Below, piece by piece: positions 2,779 to 10,381 of a stretch of DNA of 64,000 nucleotides. Both the position numbers and the translations under genes were made by a program. The notes under the pieces were generated by a model. That model searched no databases and was not told the DNA's origin. It was given only the letters and a program-made list of their open reading frames with translations. Each line of letters opens with the position of its first letter. Within the stretch, counting starts at the first letter, position 1. The stretch lies in contig JANYHF010000011.1 in NCBI GenBank assembly GCA_025359185.1, forward strand, positions 1 to 64,000. The letters run 5' to 3'. The DNA is from Hyphomicrobiaceae bacterium (lineage in GTDB: Bacteria > Pseudomonadota > Alphaproteobacteria > Rhizobiales > Hyphomicrobiaceae).

Positions 2779-3255
2779 TTATGGCAACAACACGGCATCG
2801 ATGACATGAATGACGCCATTTGAGGCGCGGATGTCAGCCGTCGTGACGCTGGCACCGTTGACGCTGACGCCGTGCATGTTCTTACGAACGCGTACGGACT
2901 TTCCGTTGAGCGTGGCCACACGCGTCGTGCCGTGCGGAATGGCGGCAGCCGGAATGCGCTTGCCGACAACGTGATAGAGCAGGATCGACTTAAGCTTGCC
3001 GCGGTTCTGCGGCTTCAGCAGTGTCGCGACGGTGCCCGCTGGCAGAGCGTCAAAAGCCGCATTGGTTGGGGCAAAGACTGTAAAGTTGCCAGGGCCGTTC
3101 AGCACACCAACCAGGTTGGCGGCCTTGAGCGCTGCGACCAGCGTCGAAAAATTTCCATTCTTGCTTGCGATCTGGGCGATCGTTGCAGCCGTACCAGCTG
3201 TAGCGGTCCCCAAAACAAGTCCAAGCGCGACCAGTGCGGTTGCGATCAAGCGCAT
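2779..3255 (-). CDS. secreted single FAS1 (fasciclin) domain protein
   Basis: A 158-residue exported protein. An N-terminal signal peptide (MRLIATALVALGLVLG..TAGTAA) is followed by one FAS1 domain with the recognisable blocks FTVFAPTNAAFDALP, LLYHVVGKRIPA and NGVIHVIDAVLLP. FAS1 domains mediate surface adhesion or matrix interactions. The start at 3255 has GGAGG (3265-3269) at good spacing; the frame is open further upstream but that part lacks coding character. An ECF-type promoter, TGATCC-N16-CGTTTG, lies at 3298-3325, placing the gene in the same regulon as the ChrR-type sigma factor encoded 3 kb away. From memory, a fasciclin protein is also a singlet-oxygen sigma-factor target in Rhodobacter sphaeroides. 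Confidence 0.88.
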   Translation of the reverse strand: MRLIATALVALGLVLGTATAGTAATIAQIASKNGNFSTLVAALKAANLVGVLNGPGNFTVFAPTNAAFDALPAGTVATLLKPQNRGKLKSILLYHVVGKRIPAAAIPHGTTRVATLNGKSVRVRKNMHGVSVNGASVTTADIRASNGVIHVIDAVLLP

Positions 3256-3297: not shown

Positions 3298-3325
3298 CAA
3301 ACGCCGTCGGCTTTGCACCGGATCA
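3298..3325 (-). promoter_or_regulatory. ECF-sigma promoter of the fasciclin gene
   Basis: Reading leftwards, TGATCC (3325-3320), a 16-base spacer and CGTTTG (3303-3298). It would start RNA about 36 bases before the fasciclin ATG. The same two boxes with the same spacing recur at 3363-3390, 6845-6872 and 6884-6911. Confidence 0.7.
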
Positions 3326-3362
3326 CCAAATATGGTCCGCTAACGGCCGCCTCTTGGTTTTG

Positions 3363-3390
3363 TGATCTGGGGTCCGGATAGGGACGTTTT
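3363..3390 (+). promoter_or_regulatory. ECF-sigma promoter of folE
   Basis: TGATCT (3363-3368), 16-base spacer, CGTTTT (3385-3390). It lies about 90 bases before the folE start and is divergent from the fasciclin promoter, with 37 bases between the two -35 boxes. Confidence 0.7.
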
Positions 3391-3485
3391 AACCGGCAAT
3401 GGCTGCCACACGGCAAAGCGCAACAGGCGCTGCGGCGGCCTAGGTATCGCCGGCTCAAGTTTTCAATAATCTGTCGAGGTAACCT

Positions 3486-4106
3486 ATGAATGCGATGGTG
3501 CACCCCCTCAAGGGCTGTAAGTCCACTCAGATATTCAACGCCGCCAAACCCACGCGCGCCGAGGTCGAAGCGGCCTTCCGCACCATCATCCGCTGGACTG
3601 GGGACAATCCGGAACGTGATGGCCTGGCCGATACGCCCGGCCGGGTGACCCGGGCGTTCGAAGAGTATTTCGCCGGCTACGGCCAGGACCCGGCGCAGTT
3701 CCTTGAGCGCACATTCGATGAGACTGAGGGTTATGACGAAATGGTGCTGCTGCGCGGCATCCCGTTCGAGAGCCATTGTGAGCATCACATGGCCCCGATC
3801 ATCGGCAAGGCCTGGGTCGCTTACATTCCAACCGGTCACGTGGTCGGCATTTCCAAACTGGCGCGCGTCGTCGAGGCTTACGCCAAGCGGTTGCAAATCC
3901 AGGAAAAGATGACGTCGCAGATCGCCAATGTCATCAACGAGGTGCTGAAGCCGCAGGGCGTTGGCGTGGTCATCAAGGCCCGTCACCACTGCCTGTCGTC
4001 ACGGGGCATTCACAAGCACGGCACTGACCTTGTCACCAGCCGCATGTTGGGTTGTTTTCGTGATAACGCTGCCACCCGGCAGGAATTTCTGGCCATGGTG
4101 GATTGA
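3486..4106 (+). CDS. folE: GTP cyclohydrolase I
   Basis: A 206-residue FolE of the type I family, which converts GTP to 7,8-dihydroneopterin triphosphate for folate and pterin synthesis. Zinc ligands are visible as Cys98 and His101 in ESHCEHH and Cys169 in [10 protein letters not shown]. The block [20 protein letters not shown] carries the usual active-site residues. The start ATG follows GAGG in TCGAGGTAACCT. A promoter of the ECF type sits upstream, which is unusual for a housekeeping folE and suggests a stress-induced copy, perhaps serving pterin or folate cofactors. It is followed after 27 bases by a small membrane protein gene on the same strand. Confidence 0.95.
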
Positions 4107-4133
4107 CGCCAGCCTCGGATTAAAGGACGCGAC

Positions 4134-4559
4134 ATGATTGTGACCAGTGCGATTGCCTATGGCGTGACGTTGCTGGTGTTTGTCGCGCTCGACATGGTTT
4201 GGCTGACATGGGTCGGCGGGCCGCTGTACCGGCAGGTGCTTTCCGACATTCTTGCGCCCAATGTCCGGCTCGAACCAGCGCTACTGTTCTATTTGATCTA
4301 CCCGCTTGGCCTGATGGTTTTTGCGGTGCACCCTGCGATCAACGGTGGCACCGTGTTAACCGCTTTGTTGATGGGGGCATTGTTTGGCTTTTTCACCTAC
4401 GTGACTTACGACCTCACGAATTTTGCCACGCTCAAAAGTTGGACGCTTGGCGTCACGCTGATGGATATAGCGTGGGGATGTTTTCTCGGCGGGGCTGCGG
4501 CGTCTGCCGGCGCGAGCGCGGTACCGTCCATTGCTTCGTGGGTGGGCTCCGGCGTCTGA
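4134..4559 (+). CDS. DUF2177 family small membrane protein
   Basis: A 141-residue protein with about four hydrophobic segments (residues 3-27, 46-66, 73-90 and 105-125) and the conserved pieces FVALDMVWLTWV, FTYVTYDLTNFATLK and DIAWGC that mark the DUF2177 family. The function is unknown. It is the second gene of the folE transcription unit under an ECF promoter and its stop is four bases from the convergent DUF1295 gene, so both belong physically to the sigma/ChrR cluster. A role in the membrane response to oxidative stress is inference from context only. Confidence 0.85.
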   Translation: MIVTSAIAYGVTLLVFVALDMVWLTWVGGPLYRQVLSDILAPNVRLEPALLFYLIYPLGLMVFAVHPAINGGTVLTALLMGALFGFFTYVTYDLTNFATLKSWTLGVTLMDIAWGCFLGGAAASAGASAVPSIASWVGSGV

Positions 4560-4563
4560 TGTC

Positions 4564-5379
4564 CTACTTCGCGCGTCGCGGTGGTTGTGGGAAAAATGCG
4601 TTGGTCCGTCGCTGATAGCCGCGAAAAGCGATGCCCCGCGTACGTAGCATATGGTCTTCCAGCGGCGGGATGCCAGACACGTAAACCAGAAGCCAGTACA
4701 TCCACAATGGCGCGGCTACGGCAAGCCAACCCCAAAGATAAGCCCCGCTTAGATCGATCGCGATCACCGCCAGACCGAGCCAGCCGAGCCATTCGAAAAA
4801 ATAGTTCGGATGCCGTGACCAGGACCATAAGCCTGCATCACAGATTTTACCCTTGTTCTCCGGGTTGGCCGCAAAATTCCGGAGTTGTCCGTCCGCAGTC
4901 GACGCGCCAAAAATCCCAGCGGCAAGGATCATGAAGCCCAAGACGTCCTGCCAGGTGATGCTCAGTTCCGGTTTGTGCGCGGCAAGAAGCGCCGCCAACA
5001 CTAAAGGCACACCTGCTGCCGCCTGCGCCAACACAAATTCCAACATGCGGCGCGGTGCCGTCATGCCCCACTGTCGTATCAGTTCGGCATAACGCGGATC
5101 GTCGCCATGCTTCAGAGTGCGCCGCCCGATATGAGCTGCCAGCCGCAGCGACCAGAGGATAACGAACGCGGCAACAGCGATCTGGCGAAGCAGCAGTGAA
5201 GGGGCGGCATCAATGGTGAGCACCGCCGAGACGCCGCCAACCAGTCCGACCGAGCAAGTCCAACCGAAATCGATCCAGCCGGCATTGCCGGTCCAGCGCC
5301 AGATGCTCCAAGCAACAGTCATAAGCGCAGCGAGTGCCACACCTTGCCCAATGGCTGTCTCAGCCAGGACAGCGAACAT
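4564..5379 (-). CDS. DUF1295 family (steroid 5-alpha-reductase-like) membrane protein
   Basis: A 271-residue multi-pass protein with the conserved C-terminal block GLWSWSRHPNYFFEWLGW and a YQRRTNAFFPQPP tail, diagnostic of DUF1295 and related to steroid reductases and isoprenylcysteine methyltransferases. The substrate is unknown; lipid modification is plausible. The ATG at 5379 opens the first hydrophobic segment (FAVLAETAIGQGVALAALM). A GTG at 5457 in the same frame would add a charged, non-membrane leader and is less likely. It lies 131 bases downstream of the chrR-like gene on the same strand with no promoter of its own seen, so it may be the third gene of the sigma-factor operon. Confidence 0.85.
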   Translation of the reverse strand: MFAVLAETAIGQGVALAALMTVAWSIWRWTGNAGWIDFGWTCSVGLVGGVSAVLTIDAAPSLLLRQIAVAAFVILWSLRLAAHIGRRTLKHGDDPRYAELIRQWGMTAPRRMLEFVLAQAAAGVPLVLAALLAAHKPELSITWQDVLGFMILAAGIFGASTADGQLRNFAANPENKGKICDAGLWSWSRHPNYFFEWLGWLGLAVIAIDLSGAYLWGWLAVAAPLWMYWLLVYVSGIPPLEDHMLRTRGIAFRGYQRRTNAFFPQPPRRAK

Positions 5380-5510
5380 ATTCGTGTGACCCCGCTTAGA
5401 ACTTTTCCGATTTAAGTTGAAACCTTGTTCAAAGTCCAACCCCTCACCGTATCTCACTCCCCAGAGCAGAAAGGCAGGTTAAGGGGTTGCTCAGCTGACG
5501 AAGAAAAGCC

Positions 5511-6149
5511 CTAAAACCGCACGAAGGGTTGCAGCATCCGGCCCATGGATCCAAGCAGCTTCAGCTTGCCGTCCATGGCGACCAGACAAATGCACGCTTC
5601 GCCCGCGTCAACCACGGGGACATGCTCCACCTGGTCGTCCGCCTCTTCGATGTCACCCGGCCCGAAGCGCCCGCCGGCATGGCTGAACGCACCTGATAGG
5701 ACCAGCGTGAATTCTGTCCCGGTGTGGGTGTGGTTCGGCAACTGGATGCCTGGGTCCACCTTGAGCATGAACACCCGCGCACCCGTTTCGGCAGTCGGGC
5801 CAACGGGACGATGATGAATGCCCCTGCCGATCCACGACCATTTGCCGAGCAGCTGCCCACGCAACGCTGACGGCAACGCCTCCGTTCGATGGATCTCATC
5901 GAGCTGCATCGCAGTGACCTCTGGCGCATCAAGCTGCGCCAGCGTCCGCCCGAATGCGCCAACACTCAGACTGACTGGTGGACAGTCGAACAGCATCGCC
6001 CCCGCCATGTGCTCAAGCGCCGACTGCCAGACCTGGCAATGACTGCACAATTCGATATGAGCGGCTACGACGACATGACGTCCATGATCCAGATTCCCGG
6101 CTGCAAATGCAGCGAGTGTCTCGTCAGACGGATGGTGCAAAATTGTCAT
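5511..6149 (-). CDS. chrR: ChrR-type zinc-binding anti-sigma factor with cupin domain
   Basis: A 212-residue protein that aligns well with ChrR of Rhodobacter sphaeroides. The N-terminal zinc anti-sigma domain has His6, His31, Cys35 and Cys38 (in HIELCSHC). The C-terminal cupin has candidate metal ligands His140, His142, Glu146 (NHTHTGTEF) and His176. In the family the N-terminal domain holds the sigma factor inactive and the cupin is needed for release by singlet oxygen or organic peroxide. The ATG overlaps the stop of the sigma gene (ATGA), so the two are translationally coupled. All eight metal ligands known for ChrR are present, at most one residue displaced. Confidence 0.92.
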   Translation of the reverse strand: MTILHHPSDETLAAFAAGNLDHGRHVVVAAHIELCSHCQVWQSALEHMAGAMLFDCPPVSLSVGAFGRTLAQLDAPEVTAMQLDEIHRTEALPSALRGQLLGKWSWIGRGIHHRPVGPTAETGARVFMLKVDPGIQLPNHTHTGTEFTLVLSGAFSHAGGRFGPGDIEEADDQVEHVPVVDAGEACICLVAMDGKLKLLGSMGRMLQPFVRF

Positions 6150-6718
6150 TTAGGATCGTCCAGAAGTTCACGTAAGCGTTTCATGGCCAAACGCAGCCGG
6201 GATTTTACGGTACCAAGCGGAATGCCCAAGGCTGCCGCGATTTCAGGATGCGGCCGGTCTTCGAAGAACGACAACGTCACCACCTTCAGTTGATCAGGGC
6301 TCAGCGCCACCATGGCGGCGCGCACCCGCTTATCCGCATCGGACGTTTCCAGCAAGTCCACGGGCGATTCGGACTCGCGCACCGGTTCATTTTGAAAGCT
6401 ACTTGCTGTTCGTACCCCGCGCTGCAACCGCCGCAGGGCATCGATGCGCAGATTGCGGGCGATGGTATAGATCCACGCAGACGCACTGGCGCCAGCCGGG
6501 TCGAACATATGCGCTTTGCGCCAGACGGTGAGCAGGGTTTCCTGCGCAATTTCTTCCGCCGTCGCAGCATCCAGACCCGTACGCATCAGCATCGACTTGA
6601 TACGCGGAGCAAACAAGCCGAACAAATTCTCGAACGCCCGCCTGTCCTGGCGGGCGACCGCACCGATCAGTGCTGCTATGTCGGGCGCAACGGCCCCAGG
6701 CTTTACATCTGGCATCAT
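6146..6718 (-). CDS. ECF RNA polymerase sigma factor (RpoE/ECF11-like)
   Basis: A 190-residue group IV sigma factor. Region 2 includes EEIAQETLLTVWRKAHMFDP and SAWIYTIARNLRIDALRR; region 4 includes SFFEDRPHPEIAAALG, then IPLGTVKSRLRLAMKRLRELL. It pairs with the overlapping ChrR-type anti-sigma gene. The chosen start is the first of two ATGs at 6718; an ATG at 6838 in frame would add 40 residues of low-complexity sequence and coincides with the predicted transcription start, so it is less likely but not excluded. A self-type promoter lies at 6845-6872, implying autoregulation. The predicted function is to switch on the divergent lipid-modification operon, folE and the fasciclin gene. Confidence 0.93.
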   Translation of the reverse strand: MMPDVKPGAVAPDIAALIGAVARQDRRAFENLFGLFAPRIKSMLMRTGLDAATAEEIAQETLLTVWRKAHMFDPAGASASAWIYTIARNLRIDALRRLQRGVRTASSFQNEPVRESESPVDLLETSDADKRVRAAMVALSPDQLKVVTLSFFEDRPHPEIAAALGIPLGTVKSRLRLAMKRLRELLDDPK

Positions 6719-6844
6719 TGCTCTGGTAGCCCCCGCTGAGGGCAATTGCAACGCGCCAGAATGCAACGCTGTTGAGGCGCCGGTAGCACGCCCGCCGCGC
6801 GACCCAATCCCCCGCCCAATGTTCCCCACAGCAAGCATATCAAG

Positions 6845-6872
6845 TAAACGGTACCGGTCCTATCTTGGATCA
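6845..6872 (-). promoter_or_regulatory. ECF-sigma promoter of the sigma/anti-sigma operon
   Basis: On the minus strand: TGATCC (6872-6867), 16-base spacer, CGTTTA (6850-6845). It is divergent from an equivalent promoter starting 12 bases away. Confidence 0.7.
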
Positions 6873-6883
6873 CTGAGCTTTGG

Positions 6884-6911
6884 TGATCTGCCAACGCAAC
6901 GCTGTCGTTTG
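6884..6911 (+). promoter_or_regulatory. ECF-sigma promoter of the flavoprotein-DUF1365-CFA operon
   Basis: TGATCT (6884-6889), 16-base spacer, CGTTTG (6906-6911), giving a leader of about 47 bases before the flavoprotein ATG. Confidence 0.7.
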
Positions 6912-6964: not shown

Positions 6965-8344
6965 ATGAATAGTTCAGCACGCATGGATAGTACGTCTCAA
7001 TCCCGGCTTCGGATCGCTGTCGTCGGCACCGGGATAGCAGGGCTCTCGGCAAGCTGGCTGCTCGCCCAGGGCCATGATGTCACAGTGTTTGAGAAGAGCG
7101 GGCGTCTGGGTGGCCATAGCAACACGGTCGATGTGCCCCTCAGCGGTGGCACAGTTCCGGTCGATACCGGCTTCATTGTTTTTAATACGCACACCTACCC
7201 AAACCTGACAGCGCTGTTCCAGCACTTGGGCGTTGCAACCCAGACGTCGGAGATGTCGTTCGGCGTGTCGTTGGAGGATGGTCTGCTCGAATACTCGGGT
7301 GGCACGAAGGTTGGCTTGTTTGCCCAATGGCGCAACATTGCGCGGCCCCGGTTCTGGTCCATGGTCACGGGCCTCGTGCGCTTTTACCGGGAGGCCCCCG
7401 GCCGGCTCGAAGAGCTTGAGCGCTCAGGCCAGACACTGGGGCAGTTTCTTGCAGAGCGAGGCTACGGTGCCGCCTTGCGCGATGATCATCTGCTGCCCAT
7501 GGCTGGCGCCATCTGGTCTGCGGCGCCTTCTGCCATGCTCGATTACCCAGCCGCCTCGTTCGTGCGTTTCTTTCTCAATCATGGCCTGTTTCAGCTGACC
7601 AACCGTCCCCTGTGGCGGACTGTGACGGGCGGCAGCCGCGTTTATGTCAACAAGCTGGTGCAGTCGATGGCTGCCAAGGTGCGGTTGAACGCGGCCGTTC
7701 ATAAAATCGAACGGACGGCGGCTGGCATTGAACTCATTGGCGACGCTGGTCAGCGCGAGAGCTTTGACCACGTCGTGATCGCCGCCCATGCCGATCAGGC
7801 TCTCGCCACGCTGGCGATGCCCAGCCCCGAGGAGCGCGCGGTGCTTGGAGCCATCCGCTACAGCCGCAATCTTGCCGTGCTGCACACCGATGCCACGCTG
7901 ATGCCGCAGCGGCGAAGGGCCTGGTCGAGCTGGAATGTGATGCGCGGCACCGGTGGCGATGACTCAACATTGTGCGTCACCTATTGGATGAACCGTTTGC
8001 AGGCGCTGAACGTAACCCAAGATCTGTTCGTGACGCTCAACCCGCAACCGTTTCCCAAGGGGGACGATATTCTGCATACCGAAGTCTACCAGCATCCGGT
8101 GTTCAATGGCCGCGCGCTGGCGGCCCAGAAGAAGCTCTGGCCGCTGCAAGGCCAGGGCAATACCTGGTTTTGCGGCGCATACTTTGGAGCTGGTTTCCAT
8201 GAAGATGGGTTGCAGTCGGGATTGGCAGTGGCGGAACAGCTGGGGGGCATCGTGCGCCCCTGGACTGTCCCGGGCCAGTCAGATCGCATCCATGTCACCC
8301 GCCGCCCCGCGTCTGCTCTGCAACAAGGCCAGATGACCTCATGA
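6965..8344 (+). CDS. FAD-dependent amine-oxidase/desaturase-like protein of the CFA cluster (UfaD-like)
   Basis: A 459-residue flavoprotein. The dinucleotide motif VVGTGIAGLSASWLLAQG occurs near residues 19-36, followed by EKSGRLGGHSNTVDVP, as in phytoene-desaturase/amine-oxidase folds; the C-terminal FCGAYFGAGFHEDGLQSG completes the FAD site. In Rhodobacter sphaeroides the equivalent gene (RSP_1091, as I recall) sits next to rpoE-chrR and is needed for furan fatty acid formation, where a desaturase named UfaD acts on methylated acyl chains. It overlaps the DUF1365 gene by ATGA. The ribosome site is weak: GAGAGG at 6941 is too distant, so an internal ATG at 6983 is an alternative start. Confidence 0.85.
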   Translation: MNSSARMDSTSQSRLRIAVVGTGIAGLSASWLLAQGHDVTVFEKSGRLGGHSNTVDVPLSGGTVPVDTGFIVFNTHTYPNLTALFQHLGVATQTSEMSFGVSLEDGLLEYSGGTKVGLFAQWRNIARPRFWSMVTGLVRFYREAPGRLEELERSGQTLGQFLAERGYGAALRDDHLLPMAGAIWSAAPSAMLDYPAASFVRFFLNHGLFQLTNRPLWRTVTGGSRVYVNKLVQSMAAKVRLNAAVHKIERTAAGIELIGDAGQRESFDHVVIAAHADQALATLAMPSPEERAVLGAIRYSRNLAVLHTDATLMPQRRRAWSSWNVMRGTGGDDSTLCVTYWMNRLQALNVTQDLFVTLNPQPFPKGDDILHTEVYQHPVFNGRALAAQKKLWPLQGQGNTWFCGAYFGAGFHEDGLQSGLAVAEQLGGIVRPWTVPGQSDRIHVTRRPASALQQGQMTS

Positions 8345-9129
8345 CCGCGTCAGCGCTCTATGCGGGCAAAGTGCACCATCATCGTTTCAAGCCTAAGGCC
8401 CATGCGCTGGCCTACCGGGTATTTTGGCTGTTTGCCGACCTGGACGAACTGCCCCGGCTGAAGCTGCGGCTGTTCTCGCACAATCGCTGGAATCTCTTCA
8501 GTTTCTTTGACAAGGATCATGGCGAGGGCAAACCGGAAGCGTTGCGCGCCTATGTCGAGCGGCAACTGGCGGGGGCGGGCCTCGACAGTCACGGCGGATC
8601 GATCCGTCTGCTGTGTATGCCGAGAGTGCTTGGCTATGTGTTCAATCCGCTCAGCATCTACTACTGCTACGCAAGCGATGGCGCGTTGCAGGCGCTGCTC
8701 TACGAGGTGAACAACACGTTTGGCGAACGCCATAGCTATCTGTTCCCGGTCGAAGCCGGGCATGGGCCAGCCATCACCCAATCCTGCACGAAGGAATTCT
8801 ACGTCTCGCCGTTCCTGGACATGGGGCTGCGCTACGATTTCCGCGTCACTTTGCCAGGGGAGGCACTTTCCGTACACATCCGCGTCTCGGACGCTGCCGG
8901 AACCGTCCTGACCGCCAGCCAGCAAGCGCATAAAGAGCGCCTCGACGATTGGATCCTGGCCAAGCTCTTTGTCACCCATCCGCTGCTGACCCTGAAGGTG
9001 ATCGGCGCCATTCATTGGCAGGCGGTTCGGCTGTTGTGGAAGGGCATCGGGATGCGGACACGTCCGCAGGCGCCAGACGCCAGTCTGCGGATTGTTGTCA
9101 CGCCAGAAACTCATCGACCAGAAATTTGA
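8341..9129 (+). CDS. DUF1365 domain protein
   Basis: A 262-residue soluble protein of the DUF1365 family, with AGKVHHHRFKPKAHALAYRVFWL at the N-terminus (split here only for reading) and the conserved LLCMPRVLGYVFNPLSIYYCY and EVNNTFGERHSY blocks. DUF1365 genes are almost always found between an amine-oxidase-like flavoprotein and a CFA synthase homologue, as here. No reaction is assigned; participation in modification of unsaturated acyl chains is inferred from context. Its start overlaps the preceding stop (ATGA) and its stop is ten bases from the next ATG, so the three genes form a tight operon. Confidence 0.9.
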   Translation: MTASALYAGKVHHHRFKPKAHALAYRVFWLFADLDELPRLKLRLFSHNRWNLFSFFDKDHGEGKPEALRAYVERQLAGAGLDSHGGSIRLLCMPRVLGYVFNPLSIYYCYASDGALQALLYEVNNTFGERHSYLFPVEAGHGPAITQSCTKEFYVSPFLDMGLRYDFRVTLPGEALSVHIRVSDAAGTVLTASQQAHKERLDDWILAKLFVTHPLLTLKVIGAIHWQAVRLLWKGIGMRTRPQAPDASLRIVVTPETHRPEI

Positions 9130-9139
9130 AGGAATGTTC

Positions 9140-10381
9140 ATGTCTAGCGATCTGCCGCACGCTGCCCAGGAGCGGCACCTAGAAAGCCGGACCCGTTGGA
9201 CGGGCCTGCAGCGGTGGTTTGTCAACCGCCTTCTGAAGACCATGCGTGCCGGGAGCATCACCGTCACGTTCCCGTCTGGCGAGCAGGTGGACTATCGCGG
9301 GCAGATGCCAGGGCCGCGTGCGCACATTGCCATCAAGCGATGGTCCGTGTTGCGGCGGCTGGTGACGAGCGGCCATCTCGGCTTTTCAGAAGCCTATCTC
9401 GCTGGCGATTTCGAAACCCCGGATCTGACCCAGCTCTTGCATTGGGCGATGGCCAACGAGGCCAGCGTCAACCGGGTCTGGGACGGAACACTGATGGCCC
9501 GTGCCGTGGCCTGGGCCGGGCATTTCGGCCGCCGCAATACGCGCGCCGGCAGCCAGCGGAACATCTCGGCACACTACGATCTTGGCAACGCCTTCTACCG
9601 CGCTTGGCTCGATGCGGGGATGAACTATTCCTCGGCGTTGTATACGGATCGCCATCAGAGCCTGGAAAATGCGCAGGCGACCAAGAACGACCGTATCTTG
9701 TCGCTGCTGACGCCGTCCAAGGGTGACCGGGTTCTGGAGATCGGCTGTGGTTGGGGCGCGCTGGCAGAACGGCTCATTGGCGCGTATGGCTGCCATCTCA
9801 CTGGCCTAACGCTGTCGCATGAACAGTTGGCGTTTGCGAGCGCCCGGCTGGGCGGCGAGCGGGCCGATATCCGGCTCCAAGACTACCGCGACGTCAGCGG
9901 ACAGTTTGACTGCATCGCATCTATCGAGATGATCGAGGCCGTAGGTGAGAGCTATTGGCCGGCCTATTTCGGCACGTTACGCCGTTGTCTCAAACCCGGA
10001 GGCACGGCCGTGCTCCAGGTCATCACGATTGATGAAAGCCGTTATGCCAGCTACCGCCGCAGCCCCGACTTCATCCAGCAGTACATTTTCCCCGGCGGGA
10101 TGCTGCCAACCAAGACAGTGATGCGCGAGCAGATTAGCAAGGCCGCGCTGACGCTGCGCCATGCCGAACATTTCGGCGCGAGCTACGCCCGGACCATCTC
10201 GGCCTGGCGCGAACGCTTCCGGTCGTCCTGGCCCGATTTGCAGCGGCTCGGCTTCGATGAGGCGTTCCGGCGCAAGTGGGAATACTACTTTGCCTATTGC
10301 GAGACCGGCTTTGACACCGGCCTGATCGATGTCGGTCTCTATCAGATCGGCCATAGTGCACCTGCAACTCAAGCACAGTGA
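9140..10381 (+). CDS. cfa: cyclopropane-fatty-acyl-phospholipid synthase family methyltransferase
   Basis: A 413-residue SAM-dependent enzyme that methylates or cyclopropanates unsaturated phospholipid acyl chains. Visible marks are the N-terminal lipid-binding part, the SAH-box RNISAHYDLGNAFYRAWLD, the SAM motif VLEIGCGWGALAERL, and ASIEMIEAVGESYWPAYF. The ATG at 9140 has GAAGGA seven bases upstream; another ATG lies six bases earlier. Within this ECF-controlled operon it could be a UfaM-type methylase (first step of furan fatty acids) rather than a true cyclopropane synthase; sequence alone does not separate these. It is transcribed with the flavoprotein and DUF1365 genes. Confidence 0.92.
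   Translation: MSSDLPHAAQERHLESRTRWTGLQRWFVNRLLKTMRAGSITVTFPSGEQVDYRGQMPGPRAHIAIKRWSVLRRLVTSGHLGFSEAYLAGDFETPDLTQLLHWAMANEASVNRVWDGTLMARAVAWAGHFGRRNTRAGSQRNISAHYDLGNAFYRAWLDAGMNYSSALYTDRHQSLENAQATKNDRILSLLTPSKGDRVLEIGCGWGALAERLIGAYGCHLTGLTLSHEQLAFASARLGGERADIRLQDYRDVSGQFDCIASIEMIEAVGESYWPAYFGTLRRCLKPGGTAVLQVITIDESRYASYRRSPDFIQQYIFPGGMLPTKTVMREQISKAALTLRHAEHFGASYARTISAWRERFRSSWPDLQRLGFDEAFRRKWEYYFAYCETGFDTGLIDVGLYQIGHSAPATQAQ

Follow-up and report, generated by a model that had tools for sequence, protein, structure and literature searches.

The closest described counterpart of the locus reported here is the RpoE-ChrR system of Rhodobacter sphaeroides, in which an extracytoplasmic function (ECF) sigma factor is paired with the anti-sigma factor ChrR. 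The RpoE regulon, as set out in Table 1 of PMC7074977, includes rpoE, chrR, cfaS, phrA, RSP_1091, RSP_1090, rpoHII, the fasciclin gene RSP_1409, folE2 (RSP_1852) and others, and according to the same source RSP_1090/1091 adjoin rpoE-chrR in many Rhodobacteraceae. The RpoE promoter of Rhodobacter has been given as TGATCC(N15)GCGTA (PMC5036791), i.e., 16 bases lie between the -35 box and CGTA. RSP_1091, RSP_1090 and RSP_2144 have been identified as UfaD, UfaO and UfaM, which make furan fatty acid, and their counterparts in Rhodopseudomonas palustris are RPA2571-2569 (PMC7380195). In this work we analyse a stretch of 64,000 nucleotides, hereafter the window, from a Hyphomicrobiaceae bacterium (contig JANYHF010000011.1, positions 1 to 64,000; assembly GCA_025359185.1, a genome of 4.04 Mb that is 97% complete), in which a sigma-chrR operon lies among its presumed targets. 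We consider it very probable that this locus encodes an ECF11 sigma factor with its zinc anti-sigma factor ChrR, together with a local regulon like that of RpoE-ChrR in Rhodobacter, an estimate which excludes the promoter-letter switch discussed below. The regulon is of a known kind and is compact as in many relatives; what is unusual is that its promoters carry a minority letter, found together with a change in the sigma factor loop that is expected to read this letter.

The gene of the sigma factor (6146..6718, minus strand; Pfam) and that of the ChrR-family zinc cupin anti-sigma factor (5511..6149, minus strand) overlap by 4 bp. Among 20 solved sequences to which the sigma factor has a match, R. 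sphaeroides RpoE (2q1z_A) ranks first (E 1.2e-37), and alignment to such sequences puts a glycine at residue 76, in loop L3. ChrR exceeds the cut-off of TIGR02451 (195.6 bits against 124.5) and keeps the residues at all eight zinc-ligand positions when aligned with 2z2s (H6, H31, C35 and C38; H140, H142, E146 and H176); compared with the ligands given for R. sphaeroides ChrR in PMC6852236, H6, H31, C35 and C38 are identical and the cupin set is shifted by one. It is on the sequences of these two proteins, and not on the -10 base, that the sigma factor is predicted to belong to the ECF11 group. The autoregulatory promoter of that group, TGATCC-N16-CGTA, is matched in its -35 box and spacer, with T instead of A as the fourth -10 base; the CGTT sigma promoter is taken as a variant within ECF11, four of the 54 sigma promoters found in the loci described below, window included, being alike. 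A leaderless start of the sigma factor at 6838 was judged unlikely; the alignment to 2q1z begins near 6718.

The first-pass annotation of this DNA had proposed four promoters of the form TGATCY-N16-CGTTT with a constant spacer, and all four are present, with a spacer of 16 bases at each. Three match TGATCY-N16-CGTTTR exactly: TGATCC-N16-CGTTTG (3298..3325, minus strand), 42 bp from the start codon of the fasciclin gene; TGATCC-N16-CGTTTA (6845..6872, minus strand), 126 bp from the sigma start at 6718, which would make the sigma-chrR operon autoregulated; and TGATCT-N16-CGTTTG (6884..6911, plus strand), before an operon resembling ufaD-ufaO-ufaM. The fourth, TGATCT-N16-CGTTTT (3363..3390, plus strand), precedes folE-DUF2177 by 95 bp to folE and, as had been recorded, falls outside the exact pattern through its ending. 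The three exact matches compare with a mean of 0.02 in 100 shuffles of the window, none of which reached three. A genome-wide scan with the two-box motif, recommended by the annotation and run by us as a pattern search, located TGATCY-N16-CGTTT at six places in 4.04 Mb, four of them in this locus, so that the background is two in the remaining 4 Mb. The assertion that no further copy lies nearby was also correct: TGATCY-N16-CGT[A/T] has zero matches in window positions 12001-64000, and a pattern scan of the whole 88-kb contig returned only the four window sites. The reversed form of TGATCY-N16-CGTTTR gave no match. Reversed and forward counts are 40 and 147 when one mismatch is allowed, 4 and 29 for TGATCY-N16-CGTT, and 2 and 13 for TGATCY-N16-CGTA; since the forward pattern is commoner than its reversal across the genome, the reversed control understates chance and the two other CGTTT sites in 4 Mb are the better background. 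In a crude frame test 18 of the 29 CGTT and 12 of the 13 CGTA places in the genome fall within frames of at least 180 aa, a test that is weak because the places flagged included two of the window's four sites as well as the promoter of a second ECF11 sigma factor (on contig C114, see below), and the remaining places are treated as leads to regulon members only. Of the two other CGTTT sites, the one at C15:4969 has no frame of at least 100 aa starting within 220 bp; the other (C12:8924-8950, minus strand; L006) reads TGATCT-N16-CGTTTG and stands 72 bp upstream of the gene of an HlyD-type efflux adaptor, with a divergent TetR gene adjoining. The idea of a compact 8-kb regulon is borne out in that the targets lie within about 8 kb; its exclusivity is not demonstrable, with further CGTT sites standing before genes elsewhere in the genome.

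The locus resembles R. sphaeroides RpoE-ChrR in the type of sigma and anti-sigma factor, the zinc ligands, the TGATCC -35 box and the 16 bases before CGT (PMC7074977, PMC5036791, PMC6852236), and it has in common with the RpoE regulon tabulated in PMC7074977 the targets rpoE-chrR, RSP_1090/1091, a CFA-type methylase, a fasciclin protein and a GTP cyclohydrolase. It differs in that the -10 box is CGTT and not CGTA, in that such targets lie within about 8 kb, and in that FolE (PF01227) replaces FolE2. The annotation had described the equivalent targets of R. sphaeroides as scattered, which agrees with the distant locus tags of cfaS, the fasciclin gene and folE2 and disagrees with the position of RSP_1090/1091 next to rpoE-chrR (PMC7074977). 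Unlike the RpoE regulon, of which phrA is a listed member (PMC7074977), no TGATC-N15..18-CGT motif was found at two photolyase loci of the present genome, one of which (L195) covers only a few hundred bases upstream; photolyase genes were dropped as additional members.

The recurrence of this arrangement was addressed in 249 genomes of the order, of which 140, our own included, had a ChrR match at E 1e-20. Neighbourhoods were fetched for 78 of the 139 other matching genomes, a selection which is not random (mostly the better ChrR matches, some being passed over at contig ends), and together with the window and the second pair of its own genome these give 80 loci. Near chrR there are 71 ufaD-like, 71 DUF1365 and 42 DUF2177 genes, and a strict search placed TGATC-N16-CGT upstream of 54 of 69 sigma, 44 of 71 ufaD-like and 25 of 42 DUF2177 genes. 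The proposal that the ChrR-controlled sigma factor uses the four sites as promoters is therefore well supported, with a like -35 box, spacer and CGT before like genes in many relatives. Weighing against this regulon reading, the strict search found no motif at 15 of 69 sigma and 27 of 71 ufaD-like genes, and the window ChrR falls below the cut-off of the narrower ChrR model NF051881 (221.2 bits against 300). A fasciclin gene occurs in nine of the 80 stretches and folE in that of the window only. Clustering as such was rejected as the novelty, as ufa genes and DUF2177 near sigma-chrR are common in relatives. Sigma and ufaD-like genes are divergent in 53 loci (family and named loci included), 30 of which have the motif on both sides; in the window the two -35 boxes are 11 bp apart (6873-6883), and a distance of 11-13 bp is seen in nine of the 30, window included. 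At this distance two polymerases would probably compete.

The fourth -10 base is where the window departs from the canonical system. In ECF promoters it is a flipped-out base (the third of GTX), which region 2 of the sigma factor reads through its loop L3, and exchanges of the loop change the base that is read (PMC8103513, PMC6372665, PMC4598750, PMC6411747); a residue-to-base code for ECF sigma factors has been published, as described in the review PMC8103513. This base, the ‘master nucleotide’, is T at all four window promoters, the canonical ECF11 base being A, a departure on which the annotation had not remarked; the sigma promoters of the 80 loci comprise 50 CGTA and 4 CGTT, the window among the latter. 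In M. tuberculosis sigma-L the residue aligned with residue 76 of the window sigma factor is 62, inside loop L3 (56-67, a range taken from PMC6372665); residue 76 is glycine where the alignment gives arginine in R. sphaeroides RpoE. Several relatives of the family have CGTT at every promoter found (e.g., L197, L200, L201 and L204); CGTA is kept in L202 and L205. For a systematic comparison 105 loci were reduced to 93 with a recognised sigma factor beside chrR and, after L189 and L190 were dropped because their contigs are those of L196 and L202, to 91. Promoters were counted as TGATCY-N16-CGT no further than 260 bp ahead of genes of five types, a definition covering only the fixed box letters; 77 of the 91 loci have a counted promoter and 14 of the 93 have none. 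Where residue 76 is Gly or Thr there are 21 CGTT and no CGTA promoters; with Arg or Lys the numbers are 13 and 106, and with other residues 0 and 14. Among the 48 loci with at least two promoters, 35 are all A, eight all T and five mixed, against 21.2 mixed loci expected from shuffled letters; in 20000 shuffles there were never as few as five, in a statistic that ignores relatedness. Once the sigma factors were thinned to 50 with less than 70% identity, all seven of the Gly/Thr type had T only, those with Arg or Lys were divided into 30 with A, five with T and five mixed, and the three others had A.

These data suggest that at all local promoters the flipped -10 base A was replaced by T, and that residue 76 in L3 changed alongside (Arg or Lys to Gly or Thr), a reading which we hold at slightly below even odds owing to the few contrasts and the exceptions that follow. 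A sigma tree of 90 rows, with the L3 columns left out and L198 (cut by a contig end) excluded, showed letter and residue to be clustered, with nine changes of the promoter letter and four of the Gly/Thr residue. The observations that weigh against the switch come in part from this tree. Across 74 scored rows six letter contrasts are supported. The average number accompanied by the residue is 0.9, with none in the opposite direction, and in 5.1 the residue shows no difference; across 43 well-sampled loci there is one supported contrast, or two on all branches. The association between -10 base and L3 is thus not independent of descent and represents few independent events. Further, L199 has two CGTT promoters, all T, yet carries Arg76, and three loci with a lysine loop (L275, L276 and L280) have CGTA at the sigma gene and CGTT at folE or DUF2177, so that CGTT also occurs with loops other than Gly/Thr; sigma factors with the lysine loop may read both letters, or their CGTT promoters may be weak. 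Ranked by mutual information, residue 76 stands below a linker position in the well-sampled loci, and in region 2 the residue at position 88 also varies only within the CGTT set.

The same exceptions are what would be expected if the T of CGTT were tolerated drift in an ordinary ECF11 regulon and the specificity of the sigma factor were unaltered, an explanation that denies the switch but not the regulon and that we rate a little short of an even chance. It accommodates the 13 CGTT among 119 promoters of Arg/Lys-loop loci, the CGTT sites at folE or DUF2177 beside lysine-loop sigma factors whose own promoter is CGTA, the Arg76 of L199 and the paucity of independent events on the tree. It accounts less well for the uniformity within loci (with the reservation on relatedness made above) and for the absence of CGTA from the 21 promoters of Gly/Thr-loop loci, and it sits poorly with the statement of a review that other letters at the flipped base drastically lower ECF transcription (PMC8103513). 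Judged by the promoter boxes, use of the sites by EcfG, the general stress sigma factor, is very improbable: canonical EcfG promoters do carry a CGTT -10 box, but their -35 box has AAC (PMC8103513), and TGATCY is found at all four sites and recurs across relatives.

A different sigma factor to be considered is encoded by the second ChrR/sigma pair of the same genome (C114:21099-22410; L068), whose ChrR is 40% identical to that of the window and whose own promoter, TGATCC-N16-CGTATC, has a -35 box and spacer identical to those of the window. Service of the four promoters by this pair, or by both sigma factors in common, is nonetheless improbable given the canonical A in the C114 promoter, the arginine in L3 of its sigma factor and the location of the window pair among the targets; none of the other cluster genes was found in 19 kb around the C114 pair. 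Partial cross-talk between the C114 sigma factor and the window promoters is possible. Returning to the switch of letter and loop, an extended form of it, in which a natural change of promoter code (CGTA to CGTT at all local promoters, plus residue 76) insulates the window pair from the canonical C114 pair, would be compatible with the sequences and is held with slightly less confidence than the switch itself. Insulation as the cause of CGTT is unsupported as a rule: among eight CGTT-type family genomes (our own, G310, G265, G313, G315, G281, G302 and G283), several of them incomplete, three have a second ChrR match and five only one.

If real, the switch would parallel in nature the loop swaps made in the laboratory. 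As in the sigma factors with an exchangeable L3 (E. coli RpoE, sigma-W, sigma-X and EcfG; M. tuberculosis sigma-H and sigma-L, as far as the cited sources describe them), loop residues would read the flipped -10 base; unlike the swaps, the change proposed here would be a natural one, would have taken place among related ECF11 sigma factors and would affect several promoters alike. The evidence quoted so far in those sources for ECF diversification through L3 consists of structures and engineered loop swaps, and homologous promoters with either letter, the sigma residue altering alongside, provide a natural series for the order of changes. Such a series could show whether sigma factor or promoters changed first, and whether there were tolerant intermediates such as the lysine-loop relatives. 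We found no report of a CGTT-type ECF11 regulon in the openly licensed literature, in a search from which subscription journals were mostly absent and which was not aimed at the motif itself; PMC3441632, PMC3597554 and PMC10880074 offered no information on the motif, and PMC3817407 treats only orthogonality in general terms.

By analogy with Rhodobacter we infer that ChrR would hold the sigma factor in unstressed cells and be lost upon exposure to singlet oxygen or organic hydroperoxides, singlet oxygen acting through the cupin domain. The freed sigma factor would then produce four transcripts from the TGATCY-N16-CGTT promoters. One would be the autoregulated sigma-chrR operon, which probably extends into the DUF1295 gene downstream of chrR (4564..5457, minus strand; Pfam), in a gene order that is alike in many relatives. 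The second would supply furan fatty acids (in Rhodobacter these also act back on the turnover of ChrR) through the proteins likened to UfaD, UfaO and UfaM: an FAD amine-oxidase-type protein (6965..8344, plus strand; PF01593), a DUF1365 protein (8341..9129, plus strand; PF07103), DUF1365 being the domain reported in UfaO (PMC7380195), and a CFA/CMAS-type fatty-acyl methyltransferase (9140..10381, plus strand; PF02353). This ufa-type operon combines the ufaD-ufaO-ufaM order with an ECF11-type promoter motif, and its likeness to RPA2571-2569 of R. palustris (PMC7380195) is one of domains and gene order. A third transcript would encode the fasciclin-domain protein (2779..3255, minus strand; PF02469), probably exported as its start looks like a signal peptide by eye. 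The fourth would comprise folE (3486..4106, plus strand; PF01227, TIGR00063) and, probably co-transcribed across a gap of 27 bp, the gene of a DUF2177 membrane protein (4134..4559, plus strand; Pfam); the additional GTP cyclohydrolase I would perhaps replace photo-oxidised folate or pterins. The gene names given by the annotation to all these products agree with Pfam and NCBIfam.

Judging by the distribution of motifs, ECF11 sigma factors in this family are likely to target a GTP cyclohydrolase recurrently, much as the Rhodobacter regulon includes FolE2. The clustered FolE shares 53% identity with a second FolE of its own genome (C119) and up to 77% with the FolE of most family genomes; neither the second folE nor the C114 pair had been mentioned by the annotation. 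FolE2 (PF02649) has no match in the genome. FolE matches came from 98 of the 103 family genomes. In 30 loci examined from the best matches, window included, an exact TGATCY-N16-CGT[A/T] lies at most 400 bp upstream of folE in eight of the 29 others and not in 21, where about 0.7 would be expected from the motif density of the same loci. In G276 and G270, sigma-chrR is faced by a folE-DUF2177 pair under a CGTT promoter. The recurrence of promoter motifs at GTP cyclohydrolase genes, folE2 in the case of Rhodobacter and folE in the present family, suggests that the singlet-oxygen response includes the supply of pterins or folate.

Many relatives carry a second CMAS-type methyltransferase gene (PF02353) between DUF1295 and DUF2177 (e.g., L197:7130-7915), whose product is 24-31% identical to the CFA protein of the window; unlike in these relatives, no second CFA-like gene beside DUF1295 was found in the window cluster. 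The second methyltransferase of the relatives may be FufM-like, as R. palustris FufM is reported to be 26% identical to UfaM (PMC7380195). Elsewhere in the genome of the window, TGATCC-N16-CGTTGT (C7:1158-1183; L218) lies about 50 bp upstream of the gene of a rubrerythrin-VIT1 protein (PF02915, PF01988), a possible distant member of the regulon, and TGATCC-N16-CGTAGA (C87:73621-73646; L117) lies 65 bp upstream of a bacterial globin gene (PF01152), a possible target of the second sigma factor.

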